Assembly (NCBI RefSeq): GCF_964355755.1
Contig: NC_092676.1
Coordinates: 28,006,288-28,070,287, forward strand
DNA length: 64,000 bases
Direction of reading: 5' to 3'
Source: Antedon mediterranea
Taxonomy: Eukaryota > Echinodermata > Crinoidea > Comatulida > Antedonidae
Shown piece by piece: positions 3,101 to 49,623 of the stretch. The position numbers and the translations under genes are program-made. The notes under the pieces are model-generated. The model ran no database searches. It saw only the letters and a list, made by a program, of their open reading frames with translations, and was not told the origin of the DNA. Numbering within the stretch: the first letter of the stretch is position 1; every line of letters begins with the position of its first letter.

Positions 3101-3317
3101 CTTGGGGAGGGCTGTCGACTGCTGTGATTGGAGGAGGTCTTGAGTTGCCTAGTATTCCGTCAATTGAATGTTGCATCCCGTAACTATTTCGATTTCCAGC
3201 GACGGAATTTCCAACATGCTGGTCGTCCGCTGGTAACCCTCCGAAACTCTTTTCAAGAGAAATTCCGCCATAATTTTTGGCACAGATGGTGTCTTCACCA
3301 GTTGTGTTATAGATCAT
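3101..3317 (-). CDS. First coding exon of a second paired-class (probable Alx) homeobox gene; partial
   Basis: This exon encodes 72 residues plus one base, starting at ATG 3317 in context TACCATGA. An in-frame TAG lies eight codons upstream. It contains HSIDGILG (residues 50-57), an octapeptide differing from that of the neighbouring Alx gene only at its first residue. It ends at a strong donor, AAG|GTACGT, also in phase 1. Same strand, same exon architecture, same intron phase and about 22 kb of separation suggest a tandem paralogue; echinoderms are known to have Alx1 and Alx4 in tandem. No homeodomain exon is visible in 1-3100, so the remaining exons must lie left of the window. Pax3/7, homeobrain or another octapeptide-bearing gene is possible. 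Coding status is likely; the exact family is inference. Confidence 0.68.
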
Positions 3318-6300
3318 GGTATTTTTTTTTTGGTATATCTATAATCAAAACACAATTCGAATGTTAGGCCCTAGATGAGATCGAGATGCAAGCAATGACT
3401 GAATGGATGAATGTAGACCGGTTCGATTGTATCAATAATATCTAACAACAACCCTTTTCAAGGTCTGGGTTACCCTAACTGCGTGTTAATGTGACAGAAA
3501 ATAAATGTTGCGTTAGCCAGATTGCTCAGTTTCCCATCCTACCGTGGCGTGACAAGTAACAGAAAAGATCCCGGCAGCTTGTTATCGCTTTATCAAAAAA
3601 ACAGCGTGCCAATTTTTTAAATGACCTTGAGACCGCCCTCACTCTTCCACTATTTACATAGGTCAGGAAGATCTGACCAATCGTATAGGCCTGTTGACAT
3701 TCTTTTCGTTGCATAGCAATAACAATCTTTCATCTTACCGCGTTTGCAGCCTCTTTCTGTACAGCAGTGAGCTGCCTACTGCGTTTCGTATGAACTTTAA
3801 ATTAAATTTGTTGAGGGCCTAGCCTCGGGGTCCGCGACGGAACGTAACAGCAAAAAGCAAGTGTTACTGAATGAAAAGTTAGATGAGTATCGGGTTGTGT
3901 TCTCCAACCAGGTAATCCGTGATCTTTCAAATTGACTTCTAAAAATGAATACGGATTGTAGCCATGAACCAATAATGTACTTTTCTTCCCACCCAGGCTT
4001 GCGGTTCAGAGACGAATTTGTCGGGGTGAACAAGAGCTTGCACTTCCCAACCCAGCAGACAATCTTAAGCTGTCAGCGTTGATTTGAAGCGATGACTTTT
4101 CGCACGTCACACTCCCCCAACATAATACACACTTGGGCTTTAACTGATTACCAACTGTAACGCTGCATCCTTCTAACCGGGATTCAATACTATAAATTAC
4201 CGCCGTCGCTTTAACAAATTTTAACCCTTTACTTTATAACATCTAATTCAATTGATTATTATTCATAGTTGATAGTATCATTCAATTCTAGTTAAATTTA
4301 ATAACACGACATGGTGTGTTGGCTTGGTTTGGTATCGCGTGGTTACAATAAACAAAACTGTAATTGACGGCACGGTGCAACCAAAAAAAAAACAAAAAAA
4401 ACAAACAAACTCAAGTCCTCGAATTAGGTAATCTTAAATTTACTCTCCATATAAAAAATAACAAAAGAGGAAAGCACATTATTAGTGAGAGTGAGAAAAC
4501 AACAAAAAAGCCTGCAAAATGGTAAAATATTCGAAGTTAACGCAACATTATATTATTTTAGTTTATAACAATTGGTAATTCAAACTTTCTTAACACAGTA
4601 AGGCCAACTCAAATCAGACATACTTTTATACTTTTCTAGTTACAAATCCACCCAATGTTGATACAGTATCTTGTTACAGATCATTCTAAAGAAAAGAGGT
4701 AAATAATTGTAAAAATATTTAACCATCTGCAATTTATAACGAAATGCAAGTTAGTCCTATTTATTTTGTGGCATTTTGCCGATCAGCTTATGTAGTAACT
4801 TTTAATGTATACAATCTAGGCCTAGTTAATGTCAATAACGTCAAATTAATATTTGTAAATGCTAAGTATAATGTTATTAATATTATGTTGTGAATTGTTT
4901 TGTTAAGTTTGTCCCATGATAATTTGTCGAATTAAAACAGTTAAAAGTGCGTTACCCTTATTTGATGTAATTAATTCGCTAGATGGTCATCATGATAGGG
5001 CAAAGAACAAGCTCCTAATCAAGTGATTTATACTGTTATGTAAATCTAATTACGGTATTTTACAAGTAAATGTCTTTTTTTTTTGTGCAACATTAACGAT
5101 AGAAATGTTTGTTTAGAATACAACTTAAGAAAGCTGACAAAAAGTTAACACAGCGGATGTTTGACAGTTTGCACCAAGGACGATTTACTCTTCCGTGATA
5201 TCGACTAAAAGGTTAATGCGCGCGTACTGAAACAAGCACAATTTTCATCAATGTTTGAACGCGTGCGTGCAATAGGACTAAAGTAACGTAATTGATTAAT
5301 TTTAAATCTGGGCATAAACATTACACAACATTTGAAAGAATAACCTGACTTTTAGAAATTATTTCCTATGAGATTTTAGTTAAAAACGAAAGATATTTTT
5401 TAATATATAAAAATGTATTGTAGGAGAGGTAGTGGAACTTGAAAACTCTCTTTTAATATTAAATCAACACGTCATTTTAGGTCTACTGCAGTCAAGTTAA
5501 TATCAATAACAGTGACTTACACAAATTGCTGTGATGTTTTAAAGCAGTTAATTTATTATTCCTTGATTTCTTTTCGCTTGGGAAAACATTTTAATTAGTA
5601 AAGATAAATATTTCAACTGAAGATACAGATATGGTAATTCCTGACGATCCTGAAAATAAATGAATAATAATATGTTAGTTCACCTGATTATTATGAGTAT
5701 TGTCAGTCAGATTGTAGTTCTGTCGGAATTGAATTTTGCTTTTTCTCTAAAGCTTGATTGTTTCTAAATTACTCTTACAAAGTAGTGAACATTACAACGA
5801 ATAATAATCAAAGCAGAACTTGATATTCCAGGCCTACTTACTGTTGGTACATACCGGGAAACACGCCTACTTGTAAATTATTGCTTAGCAAAAAGTCAAG
5901 TCAATGGTTTTACAGAACTCAAAACCTATCGCTTAATATAGGCCTACCAAGTTAAATTATAAAAAAAATAAATGTATAAACTCGACTCCTATTCTTGTTT
6001 AAAGTAACCAGAAATTCTGTTGTGAAAACAGCACTTCTAACGTCATAAATAGAGACAATATATAACGTCAAGTTACAATTTCACCAATACTTGACAAAGC
6101 GTTTAAAATTAAAATGTTTTACAACAGAAATTATAAATATACTTCTTAGAACTTTCTAATATTAAAAGTCAAACTTCAGAAAGTGGCATCAGGCAGCTAA
6201 ACAATGCGACAGATGCTATTAGCAGACGTTTCACTTTCTTCATGTGCATAAAAAGAACGTTTAGCCACATTTCCATCACAAATTAAGTGAAAACAATAGT

Positions 6301-8891
6301 TTTAAATGCCTTATCATTTATTATTTGAAAGGTAAGTTTAAATTGGAATGAGAAGTTGAATTATCACCTATCATCGTAATGCCATTGTTAGTATCATGTT
6401 AAACACCATCTTCACTCAACCATATGCTTCCAAACGCGCCAAGATGATAAAATATAGAATACATTGCACATCAAATTGTTTTAATATCTGTGGCGAGGGA
6501 CCCACCTACTACTTTTGTTTCTATTCCTCAGAGTGAAATTTCGGAACATGTTATTGAAATATCTGTAAATGGAGTTTTTATTTATTTTACGTGTTTCAAC
6601 AAAACGAACCAATTTATGACTTTACTATTGCAAGACACCTTGGTATTGTTTTAGAGTTCTTCTTTCATGGCATCAATTCTAAGTTTTAGTTTTTTATTTA
6701 TTATACGTGTTTGACTAGATGTACATTGATGTCACTTTACGTTACTGAATCACTGGATATGGTAATGTCACAAAACAATCGAATAACTCATTGTATTTCT
6801 GCTATAAATGCAAGCTTTAGTAAACTTGGAAATTATTTATTTTCATTATTTATCTTTTTTAACTTATTTGCATATAAACGAATTTTTACGAATATACAAA
6901 TAAATAAGAGAAAAGCACAGTAGAATTCGAAAGACAAATTGCTAAAACTCAATCACATGTACACGCATGAAACTCAATTGAATTTACAAACAATCTGAAA
7001 TGAAACATTATAAAGGTATTTGAAAACATTCGTATCATCTTGAATGTCCTTATAGTCTGTTAATATTTAGGTTTAACATAGAAAACGTTAGGCTCGTCAG
7101 GTCTACCGGCTGACGCATTTCACACGCCGATAAAACAGCTCTGACGTACGCTGCCTTCAGACATTAGAAACCTCGCCATGGGCTAAGGTTGTTAAGATTA
7201 TGTTCCTTCCATTGTCTCCACCCTAAAAAGGAAGGGATATATTATGTGAATTTCCAGGTATTGCCAACGGTGCTGGATGAATGGATTAAGAAAGCAACAC
7301 CTTATATGAACTAACACTGTTATTAATACATCAACAAACAGACGATCAACCTCAATTTAAAACTATTACAAAAAAAGAAACCTTTAATTATATTTCATCC
7401 ATAAAATAAAAGACATTATACTATAATTAATAATAATAAATAATATGGTATACACATATTTGAAACGATTTATACAGCATTAACACAATGACTATTAATA
7501 CAAACTTTTTTTCCTGGTGAAACTTGTCTTAAAGCTTACCGTATTTGATTTCTCCAGTACGACGCATTAGCTATTAATTTGTTTCATATATGAATTTTGC
7601 TTTGTATAAATAACGAAATGAATAAATGAATTTAAAGTCATGAAAAACAATTAACTTGTAGGTCTACGAACATTATTGTCTTAGTAAAAAAAATTATTTA
7701 AAACATCATCAAAATACAAAGTGTTTCCTTTATGTTTAGGTACACATATTGTTTACACGCACGTGATGTGTTTTCGCGAATGGCTGCTTTAAATATATTT
7801 AATATACATAATATTATGGAGCACCCACCTTAAATGTTACGTGACCCCAGCGATCATTAGCACTTAAAATTGTCCCCTACATTGACCGTAAACCTAATGT
7901 CGAGGTTAAATATGGTTAATGTCAATATCATTTTTGTTCAAACTGTTGAAAGTAAAATGTGTGAACGGTATTCATATTATAACCCTCACGGTCGACACTT
8001 TTAAAAGTTGATAAACCACAGGAACAGTTTGTTTTTAAATTAACAGAAAGGTGATAAATCTGTAAGATGTAGATACGGTGTATTGGCACCAGGTTCATGG
8101 TTAAAAATATCCCCAAGTCACATTCGAATTTTTTTTCGATTTTTTTTGTAATGAATTATATCACCTTATAAACTTCTACAACTTTCATTTAAAACTTAAA
8201 TTTTTGTTATTTTATTTTTACAGTAGTATCAATCAAGAGATAAATGTTACAAAATATAGTAGCCTATAATACAATATTTCACATGCTTATAATTACAAAT
8301 AAAAACTATTAAACCTAATAAATGGATACAAATGATTGGCTAATTAATTACATTAATCTGCATTAATCTGTACGATAATCTTTATAATAATCTACTAATT
8401 ACAAGACCGAATATGAACATTCAAGACCACACCTTTGTGTGAAGTCATTCCATGAAATACGAATGAATTTGATTGGCTAATAGAGACACAAACGATTCTC
8501 AAATAAATATATTATCAGACTTATCTTTCATCTTATTAATTTATTTATTAATTATTACGTAATTGGATCAAGCTATTAAACATTGACTTGACTCGCAGTT
8601 GCGTGCGCGCGCAATTACTAATAATGATACGCGTTTGAGTAAATTCGTGAGGTGTCACTAACTTATAGGCCTAACTAGTACTAAACCAAAATAACTTGTT
8701 CAAGAGCAGGATAATAAATCTGAGATATTTTCTAGTGGTGTCAAAATGGCATTGATCCGCGGTCCAAACCTTTCGCCTGTAATTAGTATTATTCCACCCT
8801 CCATATTGCCCTATGTATGAACCAGAGCGGCGTCTTACAGATTGGAACTTCAGGTTTACGATTTAAACAACCTAGGCCTATACTTTCACTA

Positions 8892-9050
8892 GCCTCTATT
8901 GAAAAATAATTATTTATATTTTACTAAGTCTATATAATAATCTATGATAAAGAAAACTACGAGCCTTTTATAGAAAAATAATTATTCACATTTTGTGTTC
9001 ATTTAGGCCTATTTAAGTGTTTTATATAATATTTTATGATAAAGAAAACT
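8892..9050. repeat. Diverged tandem duplication, AT-rich
   Basis: Two copies (8892-8960 and 8963-9050) share GAAAAATAATTATT near the start and ATGATAAAGAAAACTA near the end. The second copy contains an extra internal segment. Confidence 0.7.
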
Positions 9051-12000
9051 AATATGATTCTTATGACACTTATAACACAACAAAACTATTTAAAAAAAAT
9101 TATTTCTTTAAAATTCTTTAGTAAGGTCAGGAAGGAGTAACATCATTACTGTAATTTACGGTACTCTTGCCAACAAGAGGGTCAGCATAAAATTACTTTA
9201 TTCATACAGTAAAAACTATAACGTTATAATATAAATAACTTGTTAGAATAGGAAGGTTATATATGCCTAATCTTTTACAAAATCACATAATCTCATTATT
9301 CGTTAAAACTGTTTAACGACATTAATAATAATAAAAATTAAAATAGGACTAATAACAATCCAGACTTGTCTATGCAGAAGGCTCAATGAACTTAACAGTA
9401 AAATAAAATGCCAGAAAATTAAGAAAAGTATGGGATAAAAGGGTGAGTTTTTAAAGCTGCTTTAAAATATGCAGTTGAAGTTGTCTGACGGATAATAAAA
9501 TATTGTTAAATACTTTAGAAACAATGTAAAAATAATCATCGATCAATATACCCACAGAAGTCACGCTCAGTAAATAATACATTCTGTCATTTTATCAAAC
9601 AGAAACATATCAGAGATAAACAGAATATGTAATCATTTCCCATTTCGCCGTTGGCCAAGGAAAGATTACACCCTCATATACGGAAAAAGCAAGGTGTTTT
9701 AGAAACTGATATTAGGTTTATGGCAATCAGTTTTACAAAATGGTGGGGCTTCGCTATGCCGTGGGTATGAAGGGCGGTCAGATCAGACGAACAGTCGCGT
9801 ACGGGTGAGGCTAGATTAATAAGCTCCAACCGGGTAAGATAGTCTCTGTTACAAAAGTGCAGAATCAAAATGAAGAGGAAAAAACATATAGTGTAATCTT
9901 TTATTAGAACGAAAAATCGCACGAACGCAAAGTAGGCCTTCTACAATGTGATGTTAACATCTATGGTTCCTACTGCGCAACGCAACGACGTAGTTGCGCA
10001 ACGCAAATGAGTTGAACAATTACAAGCGAAAATTACTTCTGATCCATCGCGTCGTGCATGATAAAATTACGATCTTGCGTTGCGAACAAATATTTAAACG
10101 TTTAAACCAGATTTCTATCACATTTTAGTTTTTCTCGGACGGTATGGTCAATGATGTCTTATCACGCATGTGCACCTTGTACCGGTAGTATGGCTCTTAT
10201 TTACTAGATTTTAAAGGTTAATTTAACTCACAAGTGTCACTGAAGAGAGACGTACGTTAGTCATACCTGATTCAAAGTCCCCGGAAAGAGAGCATGTCAA
10301 CACGACTGAGGAGGCTACAACTAAATCTAAACTAGGGATCGTTCCAACCCAAACGAATTGTAAACTTGAAAATATGCATAATTCATTCCGGAAATTTTGA
10401 AAATTTTAGGGAAATTTACTAAATTCAAAACGATTTCGAGTAAATTGTATGTTTTTATAAGAGTTGATGACGGATTTTAAACTATTTGCATATCAACGTT
10501 CATGGTCGATACACATCATTGCAAAGTGTTAAACAGGTTTACGCAATCGGTTATTTTGGTCGAGCCATCTTCAATTTGTTATGAGGCATGTTAGATATTA
10601 TTCCTGCTCTGACCGAAGTTTTACCACAGTAAGACGTGCTTTTTCTATTTAGTTGTATTTTATGTTACATTAACATTTCTCAACGATAAAACAATCTGTC
10701 AAAATCCAACGAATAATCGTAAATTAAACACAATTTACAGAATATCATTCTATAATATTTAAATGTTAAATATCTCCAAGATATATCAAATGGAAAAAAT
10801 ATATTTTCAAGCAATATTTCGTACAATACGTTTTTATATTGGAAATTAAGTAAATATGCTTACGCCTGTTTTAATAATTAAATAGGCCTAAATAGAATGA
10901 TTTTTTAGACGATACAAGCTTTTTTCCGTACTAAAATAAAGTATTCAATAATTATTATATTGTAGTACGATGTCAATCATTGATCAACAAATCGCTCCAT
11001 GTTATGTTGTTGCTGCAATTTTAATTTCAATTTAATTTTATTTCCACAATATAATAACATACATACAGGATAATAAATGCAATGAAGTAATCATGTGGGG
11101 GGAGAGTCATATAAGTCAGAAAGACTTTAAGTTTGACCCATTCCAAGATATAACATTAAATACGAATACTGCAGTAATAATGCAGTACACTATGTACACT
11201 TTTAACGAATGTCTTCAAATATTAGGACAAGTTATGTTTAAGGTAAAAGTAAGTTTCTAGGTTGATATAATTTTACCACTGGTTTACTTTGATTAACTGC
11301 ACGTCATCAGCAGGTTTGTGGTCCGACTTGTACTTATCTGATTTATTAATACAAAGTACATAATAAAATATAGACACACACTCTCCTGTCAAGGCCTAAG
11401 TTTAAGAAACCGAAAAAAATTATTTATGATCACACTTACTCTATTTACCGATATATTGAAGTGGTTACGAAAGCTATTAAAGGTTAACATCTTAAAGAAC
11501 TACCGTGCTTATAAATATCAGTTTATCAGTTAAATAAAGTTTCATTTATAAGATTTTAACACACTTTTGTATAAGATTTACCATCGAATCGTGGAATTCT
11601 TGATTTGTTTTCGTCTGTGACAAAAATGGTAACACAAGTTTTGGAAAGTTTTTATGTTGATCAAAATGTCACTGTCTTGAGGAAACTTCTGGTTTTGTTA
11701 TCTCGATGTGTATGTTCAGTCTCTAGTTGAAATATAGGCCTTAATAAAAACTTTGCCCCACGAAGTCAGTCCCCGGGGCCTTACAAGCTTCCGCCCTATT
11801 CGCTCTATCAGCTGCTTTATACTTATCCCTAGCGATGACTTAAAACCAAATGAGAACGCTCCACATTTGTCTTATATTTGTAAACTTTCTCGGTGACTCG
11901 TTAATTCTCTTACTGACACCTCGACGAAGTGTTCCGCAATTAATAACACATGATGTTAAAATATCCTTTAGGTTCACTTGATGTGTTATGGAATTATTTT

Positions 12001-13756
12001 TATGTGTGTGTTGTGATTGTATAAATCCACTGTTGATTGGAAATATATCAGTTGATAGGTACCTTTCTTAAAATCAATAGCTAACAATATTATATCTAGA
12101 AAAATTGCCATTAAAATGTGAAGAATTTGAAAATTATTCACTTTTAATTTATGATTCATGATTCAATATGTAAAGTTTTACTTTTGATATAGACTTCATT
12201 CAGTTTTTCCAAAACTAACGTTAAAAAATGTGAATTAACTATTTTGTGTTAATTAATAAAACTATGACTATGTACCTGTAGCAAGTCATCATGCTGCCCT
12301 TTACGGCTAACATGTGTAGAAAGCTATAGTATTGCAATGCTTTAAACGTAACGATGTTAAACTTGTTTTGACGATTTAAAAGTCCCGTATCACTCACATG
12401 TCCTGAGGCGAAAAGCGCGCGGCTTGCATATGACTTCGTCTTGCACACTTCCGAAGGGAAAAAAATCATTTTGAAATAAACTCCCTAGAAAGAAGCTTAT
12501 TCGTGCCCTAAGGCAATGCGAGCGGATATAGCGTTGAGCTCCGGCTCTCGCGGGTTATGCCAAACCTACTTAGTTTTAATCCCACAACTCAAGTCAAAAA
12601 CAGCCAACAACACACGCAATGTATGACGTAATTTACAGTCAGATTTTGAGACGTTTCATCTAATTTTGTTTACACTTCCTATTATTATACTTTAGACTAA
12701 TTAATACGGTTGTAAATACACACAAATAAACAGTTGGATTTATTTATTAAATCTCGACGCCCTCTACTTGAACTTTATAAAGTGTAATTCACACTGACAT
12801 TTCGAAAACAAATGGCGAAATGTGTCGCGCGCGTAATAAGCTGCAGACGACACATTAAAAAATACCTTCTTCACTCTTTATCAAACACAATACATTGTAA
12901 ACTGAATCAACTTTTGGTTGAATTTTAAATGATAAACTTAATTTAAAGAAACTATAGTCTTATATATTTTTTTTAAATAAGATTTAAAAATCTAATAGTT
13001 TCCATTTTTTAAAGCTAAATGATCGTTAAGACTATAACTACTGTATTATCAGGGAGTACAACTCCAAGTAAAAACACTTTTATTTTTTTCTCACGCCTAT
13101 TTTACAATGACTGAACTTGGTGATATATTTAGTATTACACCTGTCTTATTAAAATAAAAAAGTGTCTTTTGTTTGGACAAAAGAATCGAGATTTCCCGTC
13201 AAAACTTCCAATTTTTCAAGGTCAAGTCATGTTCTAGGTTTGACAAGACTACGACTGGTGGACGGAAGGATCGCACTCTGATCCGCCAATAACAGGATAC
13301 GATATCCGAACATTTAACTCTTAATATGCCTACATGTTCCCAAAACCTCTTTGTTTCGTTAACTTTAATGACAAAAGCCTTTGTGTCCCGAAATAAGTAT
13401 TCTGGATGTTATTAAGTGTCTAAATAAAGAAGGTTCTTAATTGATGAGAGAAAAATAGATTTTGAGTACCGTTATGACGTCACTGGCTGTTTGTATCATA
13501 TCTGTTGACTTAAGACCGGAAAAATTAAAACTTGCTTAAATCTTTTACAAGGCGTTTGAAGATGGGTATATGACATCAATAAAACTAATTGAAATTCCTT
13601 ATTTGCTTTAAACATTCATAGCAATTGAAATAGTTTGTGTATAATGTAAATAAGTTATTAATTCATTAATCGAATAGTGGATGTATTGTACTTTAATACA
13701 TCAATTAGTTCATGCATTGTGTTCGTATTGTATATTTTAATTTAAATAAGATATAT

Positions 13757-13777
13757 CATGGAGAATAATTCTCCATG
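13757..13777. repeat. 21-bp near-perfect palindrome
   Basis: CATGGAGAAT and its complement ATTCTCCATG flank a single central base. Intergenic. Confidence 0.8.
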
Positions 13778-16700
13778 GATATACATAGTTGTTTAATCGA
13801 CTTGAAACTAAAATTTATAAATAATTAAGCATAACTATCCGACTTTCTTACAGTCCTACCGTATATATTTAAAATTAATAATTTCGATATATATGGTTAA
13901 GCAATGCAATTCGAATTATTAAAAACAATTATAGGCATATTAATACAGTACATATATACACAGTGATTCAATAAAATATGATATGTATAACGATACATTT
14001 AATCAAAATACATGTTTCATTTTAAATGTGTTAGAACACAATGTTATGAATTTCCTTACAAAGTTTAAATGACATTAAGCGAAAGTAATGATGTCAATAT
14101 TAAATTTCAATTTAAAGTTATGAATCATGTATTTCATAGCTTAAAGTAAAACTTAAATATAATTTATTAACTTTCATATTATTCATAACAAAACATTTGT
14201 TAACATTCCCATGCATCGCCCTATATTTCCTCTGCGTCATCTTATCAACGCGCTTGAGGTTTACGCGCTCGAAGTTTACGCGCATTGGGAGGATTCTGGT
14301 TAATGTTTTAATTAGCATCCCCGGGAAATCCAGGGTTTGTTGTACTTTCATTATGAAATGTGACGTCACCAACATGAATTAGTGTTTATTAGTGGATCGA
14401 TATTCCCACATGGAATGGAAATGTAGGACAAAAGGCATACACAGATGCTTTCTTTTCCCGAAGAAACCTTTGCATACATCTTAGAAATATACGGTGTTAC
14501 TAGCCCTCATTGATATCCGTTTGTTGAGACGAAAACATTTACGTCTGCAGGTGAACTATATATATCTATAGGAGGTTTATAAAGTTGGCATTAGGCCCTA
14601 ATATGCCTATACATTTCTGCTAACTGTTCAAATACGGGACGAACAGAAACTTTATTAATTTACAGTCATACATGGAAACAAGTCAGATAAAAGCAAGAAA
14701 AAGGCGAAACTCCGCCCATGTATGTTATACAGTGATGAACAGAATATTAAAAATAAGATTTAAGTAAGTTTTCTATCTTCATCTTAAGACAGTAAGTCAA
14801 GGATAGCAGACTTTTCATCTGCTTTCTGGCTATAATTTCCGGATTAATTTTAAGTTTGTTTAAAACATTTATTTAAGTTACTTCAGTCTAGTTTTGTAGA
14901 TAAAAATAGTCAAATCTTCAAAACATTTCATTAAATATCTATCGAAATCGAACCGAATATAATACAATTGTATACTATCGGTAATATATTTAAATATTGC
15001 ATTGACTCAATGTCATGTTCTCATAATTTCAGATATCGGTAATAATAAAAAAAAATCTAACAGGATTGACCCCATGAATAATACATTTTTGAAAAATAAC
15101 AGAAGATGAATATGACCGAGAATGAAACAAATATAACTCCTAAGAGACTCGAACCCCGGGCTTGCCTACACGTCTAATGTCATACCATTTTGACATTCAA
15201 GTCTCAATGGAGGCCAACTACTTTGAGATTTACCGGTAAATGACGATATTTATACCCTCTAAAAATATATATAATTTGTGTATAAGTAGGCTTTGGATTA
15301 TTTATAAAAAATTGCCATAAGGCCTAAGTACAGGATTTTGCATAGATCATCGATATTTTCAAAGTTTTAATAAATGTTCCGAGTTTTATATTATGTATAA
15401 ATAATATTTTAATATGTACATTTTCAACGACCCAACATTATTAAGAAAGTAATCTACAACATACTTATTCATTTAATCTATAGGTCTATCTGAATAATGT
15501 TAATTTATTGTGTTTTAATGTGTAAATATAGTTGTATCCTACAATGTTTAAATCGGTCAATACATTTATAGGAAAACTTTATCTATCTTAAAACAAGTTT
15601 ACCTAAAAAAAAATAATTAAGTATTGAATTAAAAATATATGATTCGTCGCATTCATATTTAACTTCTTTTTAAAAACCTTATAAAACGAATCGACTTTCC
15701 TAAAACGTTGTTGAGAAAAAGTATTTTCTGACCTAATGACCAATGTGAGAAAAAAAATATTTTTGTGAGGAGAAAAAAAAAATGTTGCTTTCTGTAAAAG
15801 AAGCACATGCGTGTCGGTCGGAACTGAACAGACACAATTCACTCTTTGCTGTATATCGTTCTTCTGCAAAACATCTAATTCAATTGGGAAATGCTAGTGT
15901 CATCATATTGGAATCGAGCCCAGATTTCAACAACCAGGAAGTTAGAGAGCTACAGATTTCAGCCTCGATGTATCTTTTCATCGCAAAGACAATCAAATAT
16001 GTAAGTTCGAATAATCAAAGTGTATGAATACCATCACGGAATGATTGCCTCCTGTTTGTTGAAATTAATTTTGTCATTGAGAGCGTTTCATATTTGTTAA
16101 GCCTATAAATCTGTATTATAGTTTTGATTCGATGTTCTAATGTTAAGTAAACTTTCATTATGCCATAAACCTATCATTTACAAATTTTAAATTACAGGAA
16201 AAACAGAATAGCATATAAATAGTGCATGATACCCAAATTATTTTGTTTATATTAAATGTTTACAATGAAAAAAACAAGTTTATTTTCCTCAATTCCATAA
16301 AAATAGTAATTATTTCTTTTTCTAATGACAAAAAAATACTTAGTTTCAACATTTGGCATGGTTTACAGATGTTAAACAATTTGCTTAGGAATGTTGTTTT
16401 TGTATACTCATTATTGTTGTCGTGTTTGTGACGACAAGTGTACTGGGGCAACGCCCTTTTTGGTTGCATCACAAACGGTTGAAGGAAATGCAGAATTACC
16501 GTAGATCGTCTTAAATTAATATTACCTTGGTATTCGCAGGTTTTCTCTACTCGTCATGGTAAGATCGTTCGGAGGATGAAACAGTTCTACCGGAATAAGC
16601 ATTGAAAATGCGAGTACTGCGTAACGTTTGTGGTATATCTCATTAGTTTGGCAATTAGCAAGAATCCACAGTTTTGTCGCGGTACTTTTCAATGTGTTGC

Positions 16701-18713
16701 ACTGAGCACGTTAATAGTTCATCATCGCGGTACGCAACGGAAGTTATTGGATACAAATACGGCCAGTGTTCTTTTTCATTTTGCCCTCAGGAAATAAGAA
16801 GCAAGATACATTCTTCACAGATATATTAATGATATTCTATCATTGATCAGAGCATGGAAAAATACGTTAGGAGTTAGAGTGGCTTTCATGATGATGTTGG
16901 AATGTTTCAGCGAGAGATTATTTTTAAAATAGCGAACACATTTGCAAAACATTATGGTGTTGAAATTAAATTGAAGTATCTTTAATTGTTATTGAATATT
17001 AAAACAATTACTGAACAAAAACAACTAATTACTACTAAAACACAATTCTCACTCTAAGAAAATGTTTAACGAATAATCATCATTATTATCAATTACCCTC
17101 AACAGATGTTGTTGTGATAATCTAATTTAAAACAAGATATTTTTAAAGAATAATCAGTGTTCTGTATGAATTACAATGTTTGAAGATGGTAATCGCGTTC
17201 AACATGATATTTTTTTTAATACTTAAAAAAAACCAATCAAATAAAAATGCCTACTAAAGACGCTGTGATTTTATTCTGAAAAACACTTTTCTTTGAGTTT
17301 CTAATTTTAGCCCTATTTGAATTTAATTGATAGCTTGAATTATATTTTAAAACGTGTAGTGACATCACAGTTGATGCGTAAACAAGCACATCAACAGGTG
17401 GCGTGCAACACAAGAAACAGAACTGCGATCAATCCGCAGCAGCTGCTAGGAAGTAAACTTTCCAAAAAGCCCGCCATTTCCTGCTAGCATGGCTTCCCAA
17501 ATCGTCTGCTTGCGTAGTTGTTTTTGCATTTCAAGGATACACGCATCACAATGACTTGACAAACAAAAGTCCATATTGTCATCGGAATCGAGGTCAGAAA
17601 GTTGTTATTTATTAGAATATTGAAATAATTATCTATTCATAGAAACCCATTTTTGTAAATAGTAATAATGCAAATTAGATAAACGATGGATGTTGACCTG
17701 TTGATATTAAAAGTTAAACTGAAATTTTAAGTTATTTTCCCAAAAAATGCTGAATTCATCATCAGCAAAAAAAATCTTTACTTTTTTTCAGTTTAAATTT
17801 TAAAAAAACTCTTACTTTTTTTCTTTAGCATCATTGAAAAGAAAAAATCCACTTGCAATTTTGCTTTGTTTCAATTTATGTTGTTTCGTCTGAAAAAAAT
17901 AAAAAGATATATAATTTAATATAAATAAAAATAAACACATCATGGAAGTAAAGCTCAACTTGGTGACAATTTACACCGTTAAAATTCTATTTTTTTCGGA
18001 ATATTTGTATTTTGGTGTCTTTATTAATTAATTCTGTTAATTTTTTCCTACTTTATTTATTCAAAATACATTCGTTGCAACAAGTTATAACTTGTGGCCA
18101 AATGTCAGATTTACAAGATAGATAAAAAGCAACAAAATAATAATATAATGTTAATAATGATGTTAAGAAGTGTCGTTTTATCTAAGATGTTTTTTTTTAA
18201 CGAAAAGGAAACGATTTGTTAAATTGTATAAATATATTTAGCCTTTAACATTAAGTTAAAACATGACAGTTGTAAACGTTTGACAAAGTTTGGAATCTGA
18301 CAGAAGTATTGTTTATGTTTTGGTAGTACAACTTAGTTCATTGGGAAAGACTTAGAAATAGTTACAAGTTACAAGTATGAGTTCATTAACCTAAGCGTTA
18401 AGTAACTGTGGTAACATATTATTGTATCTTGATAATGATTAACATAGATAGCTTCTTCCCATGTGACACCGCTCCTTGACCTTTGACCTTTCAAAGGAAG
18501 TTCGATTTTTATTGAAAATTTACGAGTTGTGTGTGCAAAGAAAATGCACTGAAAGGAATGCTAAAAGATGATATGCGATGCGATATCTTTCTTATCTTAC
18601 TATAAATTATATTGAGTGTTTTTAAATTCTGAATAATGTATAGTAATTCTTCTACATAGATTGGAAACACTTTTTTGAAGAAAGGTTTTCTATTTCTGTG
18701 CTGTTTATGTATT

Positions 18714-18754
18714 GCACGCCAGGACTTGACACAGTTATGTCCGTCCTGGCGTGC
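18714..18754. repeat. Perfect 12-bp GC-rich inverted repeat
   Basis: GCACGCCAGGAC at 18714-18725 and its exact complement at 18743-18754, separated by a 17-nt loop. Unusually GC-rich for the region. Confidence 0.85.
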
Positions 18755-21700
18755 CATAGTTTGAAGAGTTAGGGTTATAATTAAGAAAAAAATACATTCT
18801 ACAAAGTGAAGCAATAATATTATTTTCCTTTCCATTTTTAGACGATACAATTTTTTGAAGAACTGTTCCGCTGTTTTGAAAAAGAGAATTCGTTATCAGC
18901 CATGGCCTGGCCATTTAAACAAAGAAAGTCAAGCAAGTACGTGACTATAGTTGGACACGTCTAACCGAGCATGGTTCCGCGCAGGCGTTTCATGACTAGA
19001 AACAACTCTGGTTAAGTAAAGTGTTGAGAGATTTTCTTCCGAAACTAGCTAGCTTAATTATGCAAACTCATTCGCTGCATTTGCTACGAACTTCACCTTA
19101 CCACCATAACTGCCAAAACCAGTTAGACTAAATGTTAAACGTATTTGTTTTTCGTCAAGGGAAAAAACTGATAAAAATAAACATCTAAGCAAACAATAAC
19201 GCTTATTTATGGTAGATTCTAAACGAGAATTCTTTAAAAATTCGTTCAAATCCAGACGGAGTACTGATATTACATAAATGTTATATTTAAAATGAAATCA
19301 GAATGAAATAAATGCGTCAAGGTAATGATATTTATGTACTGACAGACGACTAAAATGATCCAATCAAACAATTCCGTTGAGAATTGGTAGATAAAACATG
19401 GCAATTGCTTAAATTAACTTAGGTGACTGCTTGGAATGTAAAGATTAACACAAGTGTGTACAGTAGCTAAGTATTAATCAGTGATAACCGTTGAGGGCGC
19501 TGCTCATATTTATTATAATATTCGTAATTTCATAATTTTTTAATGATGCCGACGTAAAATTACATAGAAATGTAGATATAGTATAATGGTATGTATATAT
19601 TTCAATCCATTTGCATTGATATACTTTTTATTTCAATTTCCAGATTGGAAAAATGAAGTTAATTTGTGAGATCGGTAATTTTAATGTGTCCAACCGAATT
19701 GTCCACAATTAAAATAATTAAATAAAATATAAATATCCTCTGTATTTGTTTTTTCCCTATGCATGTATAAAATTAATTGACTGTTGTTTTTATTATTTCG
19801 CGGTTCAACTGAAGAGACATACTGTGAGGTATTTGTTACCAGATATGGAAGTTAACAACTAAACTACTGGGGCGTGACCAACGCAGACGATTTCTGATCC
19901 CAGTTGATATGTTATTGTTACATAGACCACCTCACTACCTCTTCCTAAGAATCTTTATAAGTGACCACCAGCTGAAGCAAAAAGTCCTTTACTAGAATAC
20001 TATTACTATCGTTTGATCCTTAATAGTAGGTTAGAAAACAGAACTTGAAAGAATCGCCGCAAGTGCAGCACAACAGGGCTCCATCAACTCAATTACGTAG
20101 CGTATGAACTGTTACCACTTTCGCGCCATGCTCTCGATCTTCTGCTCACTGCGCGTAGAAACATAATCGTTTCATAGTAATTTCACCGATGCTTTAGATG
20201 ACAAGAAATAAGGCAGCCGTGCCTCGAATTAACTTACAAAAACACTAAATATTTGGATAGTTTGTGTGCAGATTTCTGATAAACCTACAACTAGAGAAAA
20301 ATGGTATTTTGTCCCTTATATGCATTTCTGTTGCGTACCAGTTGTTTGGTCCCATATGGTTTGAGGTTGATTGTCTTTCGAGAAAGCGGTATCGTGTAAA
20401 TTGGTTGTCAGTCGTCGGAAAGATGATACCTTACAAGCAACAAAAAGCAAAAACATACAGAATTCTTATATGTTAGTTGTCACCCATAATAACAATTTCC
20501 AGTTTGAAGTTACAGAATTCTCGTGCAAGCATTGAATTTCAACAGGATAATGTTTCTATTTCAATCCGTTTATTGTATGACAGCCCGGTGTTGGTATAAA
20601 ATAAATGACGGATAGCAGACCTGTTGATATATAAAGCATAAGTACTTACAAATTGTGGTGGAATATGTCGGCATTAATAATGATCAAAATCAGGTATAAA
20701 AAATGGTCCTGTAAAGTACCTTCTTACCCAACACAACACACAATTCCTACATCTAATATCTATATTTTATTCTATATAATCATGGAGTAAAAAACTGGTT
20801 TAACAAAAAAAGAAACGGCAAAAAGCAACTTCCTGTTAGTTATGGCCTATACTGATGTAACACGGTTCCTTTACCATCATTTGACGTTTTGGCAAATAAC
20901 CATTTTTCTCATTATGACCATAAATATTGTACTATTACTGTACCAGGTACAGGATAAAACTCAAGACTAGTACGGTATGTCAGCAGTAAAATGGGTCAAA
21001 AATGCTTAGTATAAATGCATATATGGTGCGTCAACATTATTACGAAATAATTGAAAACTACCGTAACAAAAAAAAAAAGAAATAAATTATTTTGTGTACA
21101 TTTATACACCACATAACTTATCACATTTATGTATATTTATGTTATGTAATATGCCGTTAAAAAAGTAAATTCAATACAATTTTTAAACGAAAATCAAAAT
21201 TCAACGAAACAACTTTAAATATCAAACCATGATGCTTTCCTTCATCAAAACCAGGTTTTTTTAAAATTAATAATAATAATAATTATTATTTTACAACTCC
21301 ATGATCAAACGTACTGACATAGATCAGAATGATAAGAACAGGAAAAGGCCAAATGTCAATGAAAGAATTTACTAATCATATGGCCTAAGTAAAATAAATA
21401 AATAAAAATTAAAATGTGTAAATCAGTAGTAATACATAACTTTTATTTTTAAAACTATAGCAGATATTGTGCTTAGAAATATTATTATTTTATAAATAAA
21501 TATTTTGTAAATAAAATAATTGATTTGCCTTTATTATTATTTTTTCTAATTATTTGGCCTCATACTTTCAACCGACAGTCACAGGCACTTGAAAAACAAA
21601 TTAAAAAATCTTATCAAGTTGTTGACTGTGTGAAAATGTAGGCCTTTTGTTATCTTTTGTTATTGAATTGCTATTGAATTAACATTTCATTGATTAAGGT

Positions 21701-22366
21701 ACAGTAATAATATGACAAATAATTTATTGTAGTAGGCCTATCCGTTACATAGGAAGTAAAAGTAAGGAAGTCGGGCGGGGAATTCAAACGGTGGCGGCAC
21801 TGGGTCTAAGGGTAATTAGCTCGTCTAACAACTACCGTGTTTCCTTTGTATCTCTAAGTTTTGATATATCAATTTGACCGTTTTATCTTATCATTTGAAT
21901 GAAAAAGCACGACCGGCCTTCCTTCAATTTGTAATATAATTTTGAGGACGATCTTCTCTCAGGAACTTAACGATCTTTAACCCGTGTGAACCAAACCGTA
22001 ATCTTCCTGAGACATATATCTTGTCATTACTGTTTTAAATACAACCATTATTATCTCTTGCTACATACAACCTATGATATTGATTAAACTTTCCAAAATA
22101 TTAGACAACTCACTGGCAGGACCATGTGCTCAAATCTTCTCAGAAATCCGGACGTTTATTTCAATAGCATTCAGCCGGAAGTTTATAGTTGTCAATATAA
22201 TTATGCCATAGGTCTAAAAACATAGCTTCATATTAGAAATAATGTAGCCAAATAACTTGATTTGGATCATAGAGATTTATAGGAGGAGAATATCTCTATG
22301 TTTTAACGTAGGCTATAGCAATAATATTAAAATAGATAATTTAAGTTAGAGCAAAGGTTTTAAAGG

Positions 22367-24387: not shown

Positions 24388-24433
24388 AATTTAACCAACA
24401 CAAAAAGAATTTAACAAACACAAAGAGAATTTC
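24388..24433. repeat. Short direct repeat, 20 bp x 2.3
   Basis: GAATTTAACCAACACAAAAA and a near copy follow each other, then a third partial GAATTT. Confidence 0.6.
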
Positions 24434-25539: not shown

Positions 25540-25571
25540 ATTTATACTATGGACACGATGAAACTATAATT

Positions 25572-31900: not shown

Positions 31901-34900
31901 TTTTTGTTTATTGTTATTTAGTTTTCATTATCATCATATTGCTAATTATACAACTATCCAAATAAATTAGCATAAATTAACATAATTTATAAACTTGTTT
32001 CAATTTTATATTATATTATCAAAATGCTTAAATTTCTTATATATTAATTGCTATACAATATTTAGTTAACATTTATTATTTATAATGTTTGGAGTACATG
32101 AATACTCAGGTATTGCGCTATATGTACAGTAGTAAATGAAAACAAAATCTTTAAATCATTAATTAATATTCAATTCAATAATTCTATTTGCAATTGATTT
32201 GTTCCTCCATCAATCAAAATGATCAAATGTAACATTGGATACATCTTATAGTAAGTTGCCATTGTTTTGACATGCATGATAGACTGTTATGTTGATAGAA
32301 TGACATGATGTATGCGACAAAGACAGTGCTCTAGAATCAACATCTAAACTACGAAGGACGAACTCACGGATCTAAATCGATATGTAAACATTACAATTAA
32401 TTTACTATTTACTTAAATTAAAGTTATTAGGAAATATGGATTGTATACTATTTTTCTGATGATTAAATTTTAATGTTAGAAAATGGCCCAATAGTTTACA
32501 GTACTGTATATGATTACAGTTGATTCTAAATAACCTAGACCCGTGACTGTCAATCTTGGTTAACAAGTATTTAATAAGTTTCAATGATACAAAATGTTTA
32601 TGAAATTGTATTATAGAATTGTTCTGAACTAAATTTAGAATCACTAAAAAGGTATAAATACGCAGTATCAATGTATAATCATTATGATATACGCTAAAGT
32701 ACTAGTAGTCGTACTTAGTGTGCATTAATTCTCAAGTACTCCGTTATTATATCAACAAATCGAATGTTTGCCTGGACGTACAATATCTGGTACCCTACTT
32801 GTTAATTCATTAAGCTATTTGATAATATCTTGTAAAGTCAATTGACGTAAGTGGAATATTATATTTGAAGTTTGTTCGAGAACATTAAGAAGGCAGAACC
32901 AGTATCAAAGCACTTGAAACATCCAGGATTTTAACAAACTCTTTCTGTTAAGTGATTTAATAGTACATGCTACCAAAGCCGTCTGTTTGATATAAGGCCA
33001 TTTATACAATTGTCAAGCGTTTGATTTTATATTGTCAAAAATGAACGTTTATTTAATGATGTTAATACTTGTACAGGTTAGACTGAGTAAACTGATTCCT
33101 ATTGTATTGTATGAGTTAAATTGTTGTATTATTAGTGAATCAATTTAAAAAGATAGAATTCATTGATACTGTTGATATGGTAAAAGAAAAAGTTAAAAAT
33201 ATTGAGTGCGAAAAAAGTTAAAATATTGAGTGCGATAAAATATAGGTATTTTTTCGTATAGAATTATTTTTTAAACTGATATAATCATCGGAATAAATTG
33301 TTAATATCAGAAATGTTTGTAAATAACTGTATTATTGTATAAAGGCTAAAGAACAAGCATATTAATCTCTTCATTTTTGGCTCTTTCCCCTGGGTCGCTA
33401 GTATCCAACCCCTAACAGCGTCATGCAACAGCAGCCATAAGGGCTTTTCCCATAGCACCGAAGTGTGATACCCAAAAGTACTGTTTTCTATTACTCGATA
33501 GTGTAGGAAGTCGTGACTATGGCATTTCATCAGGTATTGTCTGAATAACAGGAAGAGAGAATCTACATAGGAAATTCACTCAAATAGCTAATATTGTCAA
33601 AACTACAAAGGAGATCTTATTATTTTACGAACAAAGACTCAAAAGTTTGAAACTTTAAAAGTTACGAATAACTGTCAAAAGCCAAATAATTAATATAAAG
33701 TGCTATATTTAGTACTGTAGTTAAAGGGATTTTTTTATACAATTATTTTTTCAGATAAGACAATTTTCTGAACAAAAATTTGGTCTGATGCGCAACATTT
33801 TGTTTTTAAATATTATAATTAATAATCTTTGAAAAGCTATTTTAAAAAATTCTAAATTAATTACAGTACTTTACTTTATAAACAAATAGAATCACATTAA
33901 AAAATTGTTTAAAAATATTTTTGGTGAATTAAATTGCTTTGCGCATTAGTTAGGCCAAATATATATGCTTAGCTTAAAGTACTTGATTTTTCATTATATT
34001 TAGAAGATTTAGTCTGATAAATAATGTTATATATATAAATAATAAAGAGTATAAAGAGACGATTTAAGTATAGGAGGCCTACTTGAATTATAGTAACGTG
34101 GTAGAAATTTAAATTCTTTGTTGTGTGCATGCTTTTCCCTAAATGTGATGCCCCATACTGGGTCTGTAGCCCCAACCTTGATCTCAACGTATACATAGCA
34201 TTTTTACGCCAAATATGTATTTCTGAACTATATTTTGTAATCACGTTATCGTTAAATGCCTATTATTGAAATACAACACCTATACATAACATTCTCACAG
34301 TATTCTATACATTTATGCTAAATTTACATTATAATTACTGGTATCGTGTGGTGGATAATGAGTGTTATTTATTAAGAAAACAATATAATTTGGTTATGTT
34401 CTCACCTGTACTCTAGCCTCCGTCAAGTCGCAGCGAAGTGCCAATTGCTCTCTGGCATAAACGTCTGGATAATGTGTCTTTTGGAATACTCTTTCCATTT
34501 CTTCAAGTTGGAAACTTGTAAAGGTTGTTCTGTTTCGTCTTTTTTTCCTCTTGGTTCCATCTTCACTCCCTGGAGATTTCCCATTATCCGATGCTGTTTC
34601 TGAATTAATCGAGTCCCCACTTTGAATCTCGTCTAAAGTGTCAGACTTTTCAATCGTTTCTGATGTGTGTAGATCCTCTCCGTTAGCCATTTTATTTTCT
34701 TTAAATTTCGTTTCGATTTTACAGGGTAAGTTAATTAAATCTGACTCTTCTATGAATTCTGAAAGTAAACACCATACTACATGTCAAGCATACGACGTTG
34801 TTTACCAAATCCATATACAATTATTTAGGCTTAAGTGACAAATTGTTTATTCAATATTATTATTTTATTATATACAGTACCTACCTACCGTACCTAACTA

Positions 34901-46900: not shown

Positions 46901-49623
46901 AATTTACTTAAAAAAACACTCCATAAAATATAGGTCTACTTGAAAAACATTGACGAATAATGATGAACACAAATGCAAGCAAAATTGTGCGTAAGCATTG
47001 AATTGTCAACTTGGGATATTATCGTCTTCGAAAAACGGTATTAAATATTTAAAACGCAATAACGTCATTCGATTTTCTCTTTAAAACAATGAGTTTTAAA
47101 TAGGGTAAAACCTGTAGGCCTAGTTTAGTTAGAACTTTAGTTCGCAACAAAAATGTGATGAAATTCGCTAGTTTTAAGTACAGTGAATTCATTTTTTAAA
47201 TAAAAAGTTCCCCATTAATTTAATATTTAAGACATTTAGATTTCCACGAAAGCCACTGTGGATTACAAACCTTTTAATAAACCCCATTTCTAATCATAAC
47301 TTTCAACAATTATCATTACAAAAAAACACAAGATTTTAAGAACATGGACCTAGGATCCCCTATGATTATAAATTTAATCACTACATGCATAAGGTTGGCG
47401 TTTAAAAATTGATAAAAAAAATGTAAAGTTTGGCAGCACCCACCCGGGTTATTGTGTGTTTTAATTTATTTTGCATATGAACTGACGACAACCATTGTCA
47501 ATTCATGGAGTAATAATTAGATGGTCAAATGTACCAAATTTGTGACAGTTCAACTTGAGCCGTATAATATGATTTCTATGTGTATATTAAATACAGGGAA
47601 TCAAACACTTGTTGATGACATCACAGTGCAGTATATTATTAGTTTACAGAATTAGATTACTTGTAATAATTGAAATAATCATTATTAATGTTATTTAATC
47701 ACACTTAATGTTTTATTGAACGCATTCAAGCGGTATTCTTAATTTGAGTCGGTGTTTCCGCCCCTCTGGGCCAAATCTTGTCCATCATAGGCCACCCCAT
47801 GAGTGTAACAACATATACCAGACATTACTTCGCCGTAACATGCTAAGCATGCCTCAAGAGTTACTTTATTTCTCTGGACTTGACGGATTAAAACCTTCAG
47901 AAAACTGAAAGATTTGAAATTGGGCACCACGATAAGCTGACAATCATGAGCAAAAGCTTTAAACGCTCGCGGGACGAACGCCGCTGCGCCCGCCGGATTA
48001 ACACCGATCACAGATATCTTCCCCAAATTAATTCCCAAAAGGGTTAATTGTTCCACGAATACATTTTTATCGTGTTTTACTAACATTTAACTGTTTTATA
48101 TATACATCTAAAAGCAAGACAAAATAACAAACAACAACGGTGAGTAGTTACAGTAATAGTATATAGATGATTGAAAAATAAGCAGAAAAGTAGTCAAATT
48201 CAAATAATATATTTAACACGAGAGAGAGAAATTTTAAACTTTTCGAAATACTGTAATTCTTTCAAAAGGTTTAAATGATATTTACTGGTATGAATGTCGA
48301 CACGCACGTGTTTACTACCTACACTGTCTTTATTGCAATTGCAAACACAATACGAAGACAAATAACAGAACAAGATAAAAAACAAGCTATTCTTTCATGG
48401 GGTCTTCTCTATTCAGCACAGGTTAATTAATTGTGTATCGGCAACTTCCTGTTTGAAATTCTATACGATTAATGAACTATCAGAGCATCCATGCATTTAG
48501 ATGAGGAATCACTATTTCAGCTTCAATTCCTCTTCAAAACATTCTTCAACACAGTTTTGTAAATGAATTTATTTACCAACGGAGGAGGAATCACTATACA
48601 GCTTCAATTCCTCTTCAAAAATTCTTCAACACATTAAAATACATTCTATAACAATCAACGATGTTGAAGTTTTGTATATGAATTTATTTACCAATGGAGG
48701 AGGCATCACTATAGCCTTAATTAGATCTCCCCTTGATTAGGACAATTTAAAGTTTTAAACATGGGTGTAAACGAGTTTTTATTTGACATGGAAACTCCTT
48801 ATTAAAATACATACCTTCTATCTTGGCAGCAAATCGTGACAACAAGCTAATAATGATTTATACTTACCTACTTTTCTATTGTTTTTAGTAAAACATTATA
48901 GGCCTACATAAAATGTCGAGCACGTGGGGGTTATTACATTGTATTGTTATTATATTGTTATCTTACACAATCTCGTATGATTTGATGAACCGGCTATAAT
49001 AGTATTAGTAATATTCAATTATGAGTTCTTTTTGGTTCACTGAGTACTTAACTTTAGGTTATCCCCAAAGTATGGATTACATTTCCTAATTCCTGTCCTT
49101 ATTAGAGACAGCATACCCATATTTGATCTACTAACATTGGACCTATAAAACGAAACAATCCAGTGGCAGAATGCTGCGAGTGTAGCAATGGCTGGATAAA
49201 TTTAAGTATAATGTAAACAAACCTATACTAGGCTAGTTGGATCAGGGAGATCTCTGGTTGGATCGATCCGGCTAGTTAAGTAAAAGTTACAAACAAGGTT
49301 GAAAACAGCTTCGACATGGCTCATGAATGATTGTCCTATCGTTTCATTGAGATCATACCTCTGTCATATTAATTTAATTTACATTATTCTTCTATGTTAT
49401 AATTCAATTATGCAATTTTTCTACAATTATTACAGATAGAAGAATAAAACAATATCTTAATACTGTATTATGAGGATTACTCACCATGCTTAATAACAGG
49501 TTGTTCCCGCTCGACTTGTCCCTCTTCTAAGCCAAATTTCTTTCCCAGAATACCATCGATAGAATAAATATTGGCTGGCACATCAGAAAAGTATCGATGA
49601 CGATCCATGTTCTTAGCGTCCAT
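25572..49623 (-). CDS. Alx: Alx-family paired-class homeobox transcription factor, complete four-exon coding region
   Basis: This gene encodes a sequence-specific nuclear transcription factor. Four exons join with GT/AG ends: 49485-49623, 34406-34758, 26213-26344 and 25572-25991. They total 1044 nt and 347 residues, and junction phases 1, 0 and 0 all match. Visible parts in order are an octapeptide YSIDGILG (20-27), an acidic/Ser-rich linker, a basic run before the homeodomain (about 115-121), a homeodomain (119-178) with Gln at position 50, the Alx-typical KRERFGQ just after it, a Met/Asn/Ser-rich segment, and an OAR motif (about 322-337). The homeodomain intron lies between residues 46 and 47, a known paired-class site. 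Vertebrate relatives are ALX1/3/4. In echinoderms, Alx1 is known to drive skeletal cell fate and has a tandem paralogue, Alx4. Which of the two this is cannot be settled here. Family assignment is very secure. Confidence 0.93.
26213..26344 (-). CDS. Alx: Alx coding exon 3 (homeodomain recognition helix)
   Basis: This exon encodes residues 165-208 in 132 nt, phase 0 at both ends, with acceptor TTTTCAAG and donor CAA|GTAAGT. It starts with [18 protein letters not shown], the C-terminal part of recognition helix 3 and the Alx-type tail, with Gln50 and Asn51. It then runs through a conserved-looking segment, [14 protein letters not shown]. Vertebrate ALX proteins carry a similar segment at this place (remembered pattern: Y-E-x-P, then R-x-x-x-Y-x-Q). 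The next intron is only 221 bp, so there is no room for a sizeable extra exon between the homeodomain and the C-terminal region. Confidence 0.95.
29937..29958 (+). repeat. Long G tract
   Basis: A run of about 16 G, one T and five G follows a T run. It could form a G-quadruplex, and its length is prone to sequencing error. Located in Alx intron 2. Confidence 0.8.
33190..33238. repeat. Tandem repeat, about 25 bp x 2
   Basis: The unit AAAGTTAAAAATATTGAGTG, followed by CGA, occurs twice with a one-base length difference. Confidence 0.7.
34406..34758 (-). CDS. Alx: Alx coding exon 2 (linker and first 46 homeodomain residues)
   Basis: This exon encodes residues 47-164. Its acceptor (CTTTCAG, 34765-34759) joins in phase with exon 1. 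The first 23 codons, upstream of the Met at 34690, are open and read sensibly (acidic, then Lys-rich), which supports splicing rather than translation starting at that Met. That Met is nonetheless in a good context (AAAATGG) and could be an alternative start. The exon holds an acidic/Ser-Thr segment, a basic run (KRKKRRNR) and homeodomain residues 1-46, including the Alx-like stretches [20 protein letters not shown] and [11 protein letters not shown]. It ends CAG|GTGAGA at 34406, phase 0, at the classic paired-class intron site. Confidence 0.95.
40164..40560. mobile_element. MITE-like foldback element, family B
   Basis: The element is 397 bp. Left end AAGGCCCATTTACACTAGGG and right end are inverted copies over about 30 bp (both include GGGCGATAACGAT). 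An inner perfect inverted repeat of 18 bp (CAATCAAATGACGTCATG at 40316-40333 and its complement at 40389-40406) lets much of the element fold on itself. No ORF. It lies in Alx intron 1. Confidence 0.82.
41171..41332. repeat. Tandem duplication, about 82 bp unit
   Basis: Two copies (from 41171 and 41253) begin AAAATATGCGATTATAAAAA, followed by AC, and end with GGTTCTG. They differ by scattered substitutions. Confidence 0.8.
42107..42470. repeat. AT-rich minisatellite, about 31 bp unit, roughly 11 copies
   Basis: The core of the unit is AATGAATATTCATTGAATAT, followed by TGATAACTAA or a variant. The palindrome AATGAATATTCATT recurs in most copies. The array lies in Alx intron 1. Confidence 0.9.
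42501..42540. repeat. Perfect 10-bp inverted repeat next to the minisatellite
   Basis: ACTTCCGAGT and its complement ACTCGGAAGT are separated by 20 nt. Each arm contains an ETS-type core (GGAA on one strand). Confidence 0.75.
44113..44145. repeat. Perfect 15-bp hairpin with 3-nt loop
   Basis: AATCAGGGAGTTGTA, TTT, then its exact reverse complement. It is located in Alx intron 1. Confidence 0.9.
47739..48086 (-). CDS. Unidentified 115-residue ORF inside the first Alx intron
   Basis: The ORF has an ATG at 48086 and a TAA at 47739, with no recognised family. It is clearly richer in G+C (a little under half) than the flanking intron, and its codons look coding-like. The predicted protein is patterned like a folded domain: a hydrophobic stretch [20 protein letters not shown], then [20 protein letters not shown], then a Cys-rich piece with [15 protein letters not shown]. 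There is no signal peptide or clear membrane helix. It is transcribed, if at all, in the same direction as Alx. It could be a nested gene, a retrocopy or transposon fragment, or chance. No splice partner was seen. Confidence 0.35.
   Translation of the reverse strand: MLVKHDKNVFVEQLTLLGINLGKISVIGVNPAGAAAFVPRAFKAFAHDCQLIVVPNFKSFSFLKVLIRQVQRNKVTLEACLACYGEVMSGICCYTHGVAYDGQDLAQRGGNTDSN
48503..48716. repeat. Direct-repeat block, 2.2 copies
   Basis: Units start at 48503, 48585 and 48700 with GAGG(A/C)ATCACTAT. The first two share CAGCTTCAATTCCTCTTCAA and ATGAATTTATTTACCAA. The second has an extra segment of about 33 bp. Confidence 0.8.
49485..49623 (-). CDS. Alx: Alx coding exon 1 (N-terminus with octapeptide)
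   Basis: This short exon encodes residues 1-46 plus one base. The ATG at 49623 has a good context (A at -3, G at +4), and an in-frame TAA lies five codons upstream, so the start is well fixed. The exon contains the octapeptide YSIDGILG, a motif that in Pax and related proteins recruits Groucho/TLE corepressors. It ends at a GTGAGT donor (intron begins at 49484) in phase 1, leaving a G that pairs with AA at the start of exon 2 to give Glu. It lies about 14.7 kb from the next exon and is too small to be obvious as an ORF. Without it the protein would wrongly be started at an internal Met in exon 2. Confidence 0.85.

Follow-up and report, generated by a model that had tools for sequence, protein, structure and literature searches.

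Alx1 of eleutherozoan echinoderms carries a segment, Domain 2, and a crinoid Alx locus bears on when it was acquired. In sea urchins, Domain 2 (41 amino acids, following Domain 1 and preceding the C-terminal region) is described as something that Alx1 cannot do without in skeletogenesis and that confers this activity on Alx4, so that Alx1, and likewise Alx4 when modified, is reportedly able to start skeleton formation (PMC5758115). The domain was known from eleutherozoans; the single crinoid Alx1 sequence available at that time was reported to be without it, and crinoid genomic data were then lacking (PMC5758115). Here, 64,000 nucleotides of the crinoid Antedon mediterranea (the window; contig NC_092676.1, hereafter C7, positions 28006288-28070287) were analyzed together with 30 kb of left and 10 kb of right flank, amounting to 104 kb free of N. 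Positions follow window numbering, negative values lying left of position 1, unless a contig is given. The locus is a head-to-tail pair of Alx genes, ordered on the minus strand as gene A, 22.3 kb of intervening DNA, and gene B. We consider it likely that this is the crinoid alx4-alx1 pair, that the duplication and the early divergence of Alx1 predate the split between crinoids and eleutherozoans, and that the eleutherozoan stem subsequently acquired Domain 2. An Alx pair is no surprise in an echinoderm; what makes this locus valuable is that it is complete, comes from a crinoid and bears on the timing of Domain 2.

The initial annotation had described a complete Alx gene at 25572-49623 and, about 22 kb downstream, an exon resembling the first exon of that gene. 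The former was borne out: gene A is composed of four minus-strand exons with GT/AG splice ends, and their predicted joins, all in frame, yield a protein of 347 amino acids starting with MDAK (introns of 14,726, 8,061 and 221 nt; Table 1). Reading phase, splice sites and homology served to deduce the joins in both genes. The downstream exon does share octapeptide, strand and phase-1 donor with exon 1 of gene A, yet the size class, also claimed as common to both, agreed only roughly (217 vs. 139 nt from the ATG). A paired-type homeodomain exon, which the annotation had proposed to look for left of position 1, was present on the minus strand at C7:28000837-28000974, 5.3 kb away, and the two bases behind the exon 2 acceptor (TTCGGTAG) complete the split codon left by the first exon. 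Based on this phase fit and on the presence of exons 3 and 4 on the same strand, gene B is predicted to be a complete four-exon Alx gene of 335 amino acids (N-terminus MIYN; introns of 8,237, 10,361 and 568 nt), whose remaining exons lie at most 16.9 kb left of the window. Both genes are on the same contig and strand. With regard to the suggestion that the pair might be captured in one window, all the DNA between the coding regions is indeed included, but the second gene is represented by its exon 1 only.

Membership in the Alx family was evaluated for both predicted proteins. The Pfam homeodomain and OAR models scored above their curated cut-offs in each (OAR, PF03826: 32.8 bits in gene B and 37.1 bits in gene A, cut-off 20.1), and the VWFQNRR shared by the two corresponds to a paired-class homeodomain with Q50 (standard numbering). 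The homeodomains are identical at 58 of 60 residues, differing at 29 (A/C) and 58 (R/K) as counted from RRNRT; the second gene, like the first, is an Alx gene with four exons. When the homeodomain and Domain 1 of gene A were compared with PDB entries, the best match was aristaless-like 4 (E 4.8e-36), followed by Aristaless and PHOX2B. A six-frame scan of the window with a relaxed pattern of the octapeptide core gave two occurrences, whereas 200 first-order Markov sequences averaged 0.02 per 64 kb.

Genome-wide searches covered the 18 contigs of the assembly, which total 354,431,138 bases with some stretches masked as N, match counts being lower bounds. The Pfam homeodomain had at least 104 matches (150 of the 163 candidates scored), and OAR at least six, two of which are genes A and B. 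A search with the homeodomain block returned at least 66 matches, headed by four exons of these same two genes; the next-best homeodomains among them reached 67% identity over 49 amino acids and 74% over 46. No third Alx gene was detected across the genome, only the A and B loci exceeding 74% identity among those matches, and the genome appears to carry two Alx genes and no third. Since the source is an echinoderm, and specifically a crinoid, the locus fits the known Alx1/Alx4 pair, supporting the adjacency that the annotation had invoked.

Which of the two genes is alx1 cannot be read from the homeodomains alone, which do not separate Alx1 from Alx4 (PMC3482387). Alx1 is described as having a charged domain, with several aspartates and lysines right before the homeodomain (PMC5758115). 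Aspartate or lysine occupies 22 of the 45 residues preceding RRNRT in gene B and 11 of 45 in gene A, the D/K-rich region of gene B matching the described charged domain. Gene B is most probably alx1 and gene A alx4. Alx1 starts translated from published morpholinos, MLFYPSMP (L. variegatus), MLFYPNSM (sea urchin, PMC10322840) and MIISDFVS (sea cucumber PpAlx1), seem slightly nearer to the start of gene B than to that of gene A, a weak indication in the same direction. Sea urchin Alx1 fragments also scored higher with gene B (132 vs. 105 for Domain 1, 254 vs. 149 for the C-terminus).

This assignment is nevertheless weakened from two sides. The Alx1 fragments may be contaminated by the sequence of gene B. 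Moreover, the one printed peptide of sea urchin Alx4, used for an antibody, TGGVEPIETDRRSHS (PMC8319359), shares 7 of 8 residues with gene B (score 35) and 4 with gene A (score 24); its greater likeness to gene B may reflect a retained ancestral motif. The peptide would favor the same tandem pair with the labels exchanged, gene A being alx1 and gene B alx4, and so would exon 4 of gene B, whose QN..W.GN start resembles human ALX4. The twofold difference in the charged region, together with the morpholino-derived N-termini and the Alx1 fragments, points the other way, and the exchanged assignment is considered unlikely.

Taking gene B as the probable alx1, the region between its homeodomain and OAR exons was searched for Domain 2. 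Each predicted coding region is accounted for by four exons, and the predicted exon 4 of gene B comes 568 nt after exon 3. Two in-frame donors are found at the end of that exon 3, CAA/GTAGGC and, 12 nt further, CAA/GTAAGT. The former occupies the position homologous to the gene A donor and was chosen in the 335-amino-acid model; the latter looks stronger, being near full consensus, and its use would add VGLQ in frame.

Some points weigh against the interpretation given at the outset. In every clade with genomic data, alx1 is reported to have more exons than alx4 (PMC5758115), a rule that gene B does not fit. Its frame also remains open for 62 codons (186 nt) past the exon-3 donor and includes six in-frame GT sites, so that the frame alone leaves an extension of the asterozoan style possible. 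A Domain 2 probe found nothing genome-wide, but this search had no positive control and is uninformative. The open frame with its GT sites would suit an alternative in which crinoid alx1 does possess Domain 2, as an extension of exon 3 or as a cassette in intron 3, either diverged or alternatively used. Phase-0 cassette frames of at least 10 codons are available in that intron (12 candidates, the longest with 40 codons at positions 37-157), and sea star and sea urchin Domain 2 is reported to be alternatively spliced (PMC5758115).

However, positions 44-176 of the gene B intron 3 are similar to dispersed repeats (seven other places in the 104 kb, in 12 BLAST pieces), and for this reason only about 14 codons of an extension would precede the repeat. 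The longest cassette frame overlaps the repeat as well, and the longest one clear of it has 25 codons (among the six best of the 12 candidates). A Domain 2 probe aligned with intron 3 no better than shuffled sequences did, 131 of 200 shuffles reaching the observed score for gene B and 200 of 200 for gene A, and the only crinoid Alx1 described in PMC5758115 is likewise reported without the domain. A hidden Domain 2 is thus regarded as distinctly improbable. The 62-codon frame was not retained as a candidate extension, as repeat makes up most of it.

The repeat itself (-15984 to -16116) is short, palindromic and dispersed, resembling a miniature inverted-repeat transposable element; its 19-nt core, CATATTTGGGCACATCACA, has 5,221 exact copies (2,596 + 2,625) in the 354 Mb of the genome.

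Overall, the frame, repeat and probe tests, performed without a positive control, revealed neither a separate exon for Domain 2 nor a persuasive extension of an existing one between the homeodomain and OAR exons of gene B, and the domain is likely, though not proven, to be absent from this gene. If gene A were alx1 instead, Domain 2 would be missing with an intron of only 221 nt between exons 3 and 4, and its absence would be a firmer conclusion.

The two copies differ strongly at silent positions. Over the 95 codons of the homeodomain block, 87 residues are identical, whereas fourfold sites agree at just 8 of 26, which is near saturation; with residues so conserved and so few fourfold sites alike, the duplication looks old. 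A same-strand DNA comparison (25572-60000 vs. -20000 to 25571) gave five hits, corresponding to exons 2, 3 and 4 and to two dispersed repeats, and apart from such repeats this same-strand comparison showed no noncoding sequence duplicated between the loci. Within the interval between the coding regions, same-strand similarity to the gene A locus was not detected. A recent tandem duplication restricted to crinoids and independent of the echinoderm Alx1/Alx4 duplication, although compatible with the four-exon structure of both genes, is highly improbable given the few identical fourfold sites in an otherwise conserved block and the lack of same-strand intron or intergenic similarity other than dispersed repeats. 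Sea urchin Alx1 and Alx4 homeodomains are reported to be 97% identical (PMC8319359), and in the present pair two residues differ.

Under the preferred reading, an alx4-alx1 pair whose duplication and early Alx1 divergence would predate the crinoid/eleutherozoan split, with Domain 2 presumably added later on the eleutherozoan stem, the crinoid gene may be viewed as a pre-Domain 2 state. In such a sequence of events, the duplication and the charged domain would have come first, in the echinoderm ancestor, Domain 2 would have been exonized on the eleutherozoan stem, and the crinoid skeleton would be built without it; we hold this fuller scenario to be evenly balanced. A shift to the donor 12 nt downstream in gene B would be the kind of first step needed for an exon-extension route to Domain 2. 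With a chromosome-scale crinoid locus and a four-exon putative alx1 in which no Domain 2 is visible, the order of events becomes testable, and the locus suggests either that Alx1 had its skeletal role before Domain 2 arose or that skeleton formation in crinoids is wired differently.

Regarding function, the products of genes A and B would be Q50 paired-class homeodomain transcription factors with octapeptide and OAR motifs, expected from their family to act at TAAT half sites and palindromes, both as monomers and as dimers. Palindromes of the type TAATNNNATTA numbered 14 in the window, with 10.85 ± 3.03 expected, and there is no enrichment, as 21 of 100 shuffles reach that count. In other echinoderms, Alx1 and Alx4 are reported to have roles in skeletogenic mesenchyme and coelomic mesoderm, respectively (PMC4750990, PMC7719703); by analogy, skeleton-forming mesenchyme may be the site of action of gene B, and coelomic mesoderm that of gene A.

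Two crinoid Alx genes have been published as transcripts, and the adjacency of echinoderm Alx genes has been published with a sea urchin as example. No report of linkage or exon structure of crinoid alx genes was found, a weak negative, as subscription literature was mostly outside the search; a word search of the main text of a feather-star genome paper (PMC7351957) did not return "alx". The pair resembles alx1 and alx4 (Calx) of the sea urchins S. purpuratus and L. variegatus in that the genes are adjacent and a D/K-rich region precedes one of the homeodomains, while sea urchin alx1 is described with extra exons, including one for Domains 2 and 3 (PMC5758115), and four exons explain each copy here. 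The sea lily Metacrinus rotundus is likewise a crinoid with two Alx genes, and the single crinoid Alx1 described is without Domain 2 (PMC5758115, PMC4750990); genomic data are absent for that species and its splice sites are stated to be unknown, while the A. mediterranea locus shows linkage, order, strand, spacing and exon-intron structure. Compared by description, the simple form of these genes is similar to that of hemichordate alx (Ptychodera flava, Saccoglossus), a gene reported to be without Domain 2 and closely matched in structure by echinoderm alx4 (PMC5758115), but hemichordates have a single alx and two genes are present here. Two close alx genes with similar exon structures are also known in Branchiostoma, a pair which, unlike that of Antedon, is reported as a separate, lineage-specific duplication (PMC7719703).

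Table 1. Predicted coding exons and associated features of the Alx pair of A. mediterranea (window numbering, or C7 coordinates left of the window).
Feature	Position	Strand	Description
Gene A exon 1, from ATG	49485..49623	-	octapeptide core YSIDGIL; phase-1 GTGAGT donor
Gene A exon 2	34406..34758	-	acidic region and homeodomain up to TEARVQ
Gene A exon 3	26213..26344	-	homeodomain end (VWFQNRR...); Domain 1, last residues RPDAYSQ; GTAAGT donor
Gene A intron 3	25992..26212	-	221 nt; frame shuts 6 codons past donor
Gene A exon 4	25572..25991	-	C-terminal region, OAR motif, stop codon
Interval between coding regions	3318..25571		22.3 kb; downstream of gene A and upstream of gene B
Gene B exon 1, from ATG	3101..3317	-	72 codons + 1 nt; octapeptide core HSIDGIL; phase-1 GTACGT donor
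Gene B exon 2	C7:28001150-28000840	-	homeodomain exon; acceptor TTCGGTAG
Gene B exon 3	C7:27990478-27990347	-	end of homeodomain
Gene B exon 4	C7:27989778-27989431	-	OAR motif and stop

In the neighborhood of the pair, a Pfam scan of 8 of the 14 open reading frames of the window and of three in the left flank produced matches for a single one, a RING-finger frame at 58542-58910 on the minus strand, upstream of gene A (PF13639, E 2e-9). Another open reading frame lies right of the window on the plus strand (C7:28071702-28071938) and is presumably RNF141-like.

Other homeodomain loci were also observed. Two paired-type homeodomain exons 12 kb apart on the minus strand of the same contig (C7:28975243-28975380 and 28987087-28987224) are accompanied by similar downstream exons (28974952-28975038 and 28986767-28986853), probably representing another tandem homeobox duplication. 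On contig C2, 13 homeodomain matches are concentrated in approximately 0.41 Mb (7793581-8206132), which we take to be the crinoid Hox cluster. Four further matches fall within one open frame of 3,044 amino acids on the minus strand of contig C8 (12532856-12535357), which we assume to be ZFHX-like.

Finally, the assembly yielded no match to the mitochondrial marker COX1, and the identity of the source was instead read from a nuclear gene, a calcitonin-type neuropeptide precursor with an exon around C7:21171259 on the minus strand. This gene marks the genome as that of a crinoid, Antedon or a very close relative, and the assembly would be in keeping with the 11 chromosome pairs of Antedon. The A. 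mediterranea peptide has been published as 35 residues with the C-terminus GGMFGSSGP-NH2 and two cysteines near the N-terminus (PMC9793003). A back-translated pattern of GGMFGSSGPG had one match in the genome, while the reversed-pattern control had 0. The published forward primer for this gene was not found in the 3,029-nt locus, where an intron may intervene. The frame at the match reads KR-GCDVFGGCAQLKVGRELAIDTLQKGSGGMFGSSGP-GRKRR, enclosing 35 residues with two cysteines, and the published A. mediterranea reverse primer (PMC9793003) matches near this exon at 22 of 22 bases.

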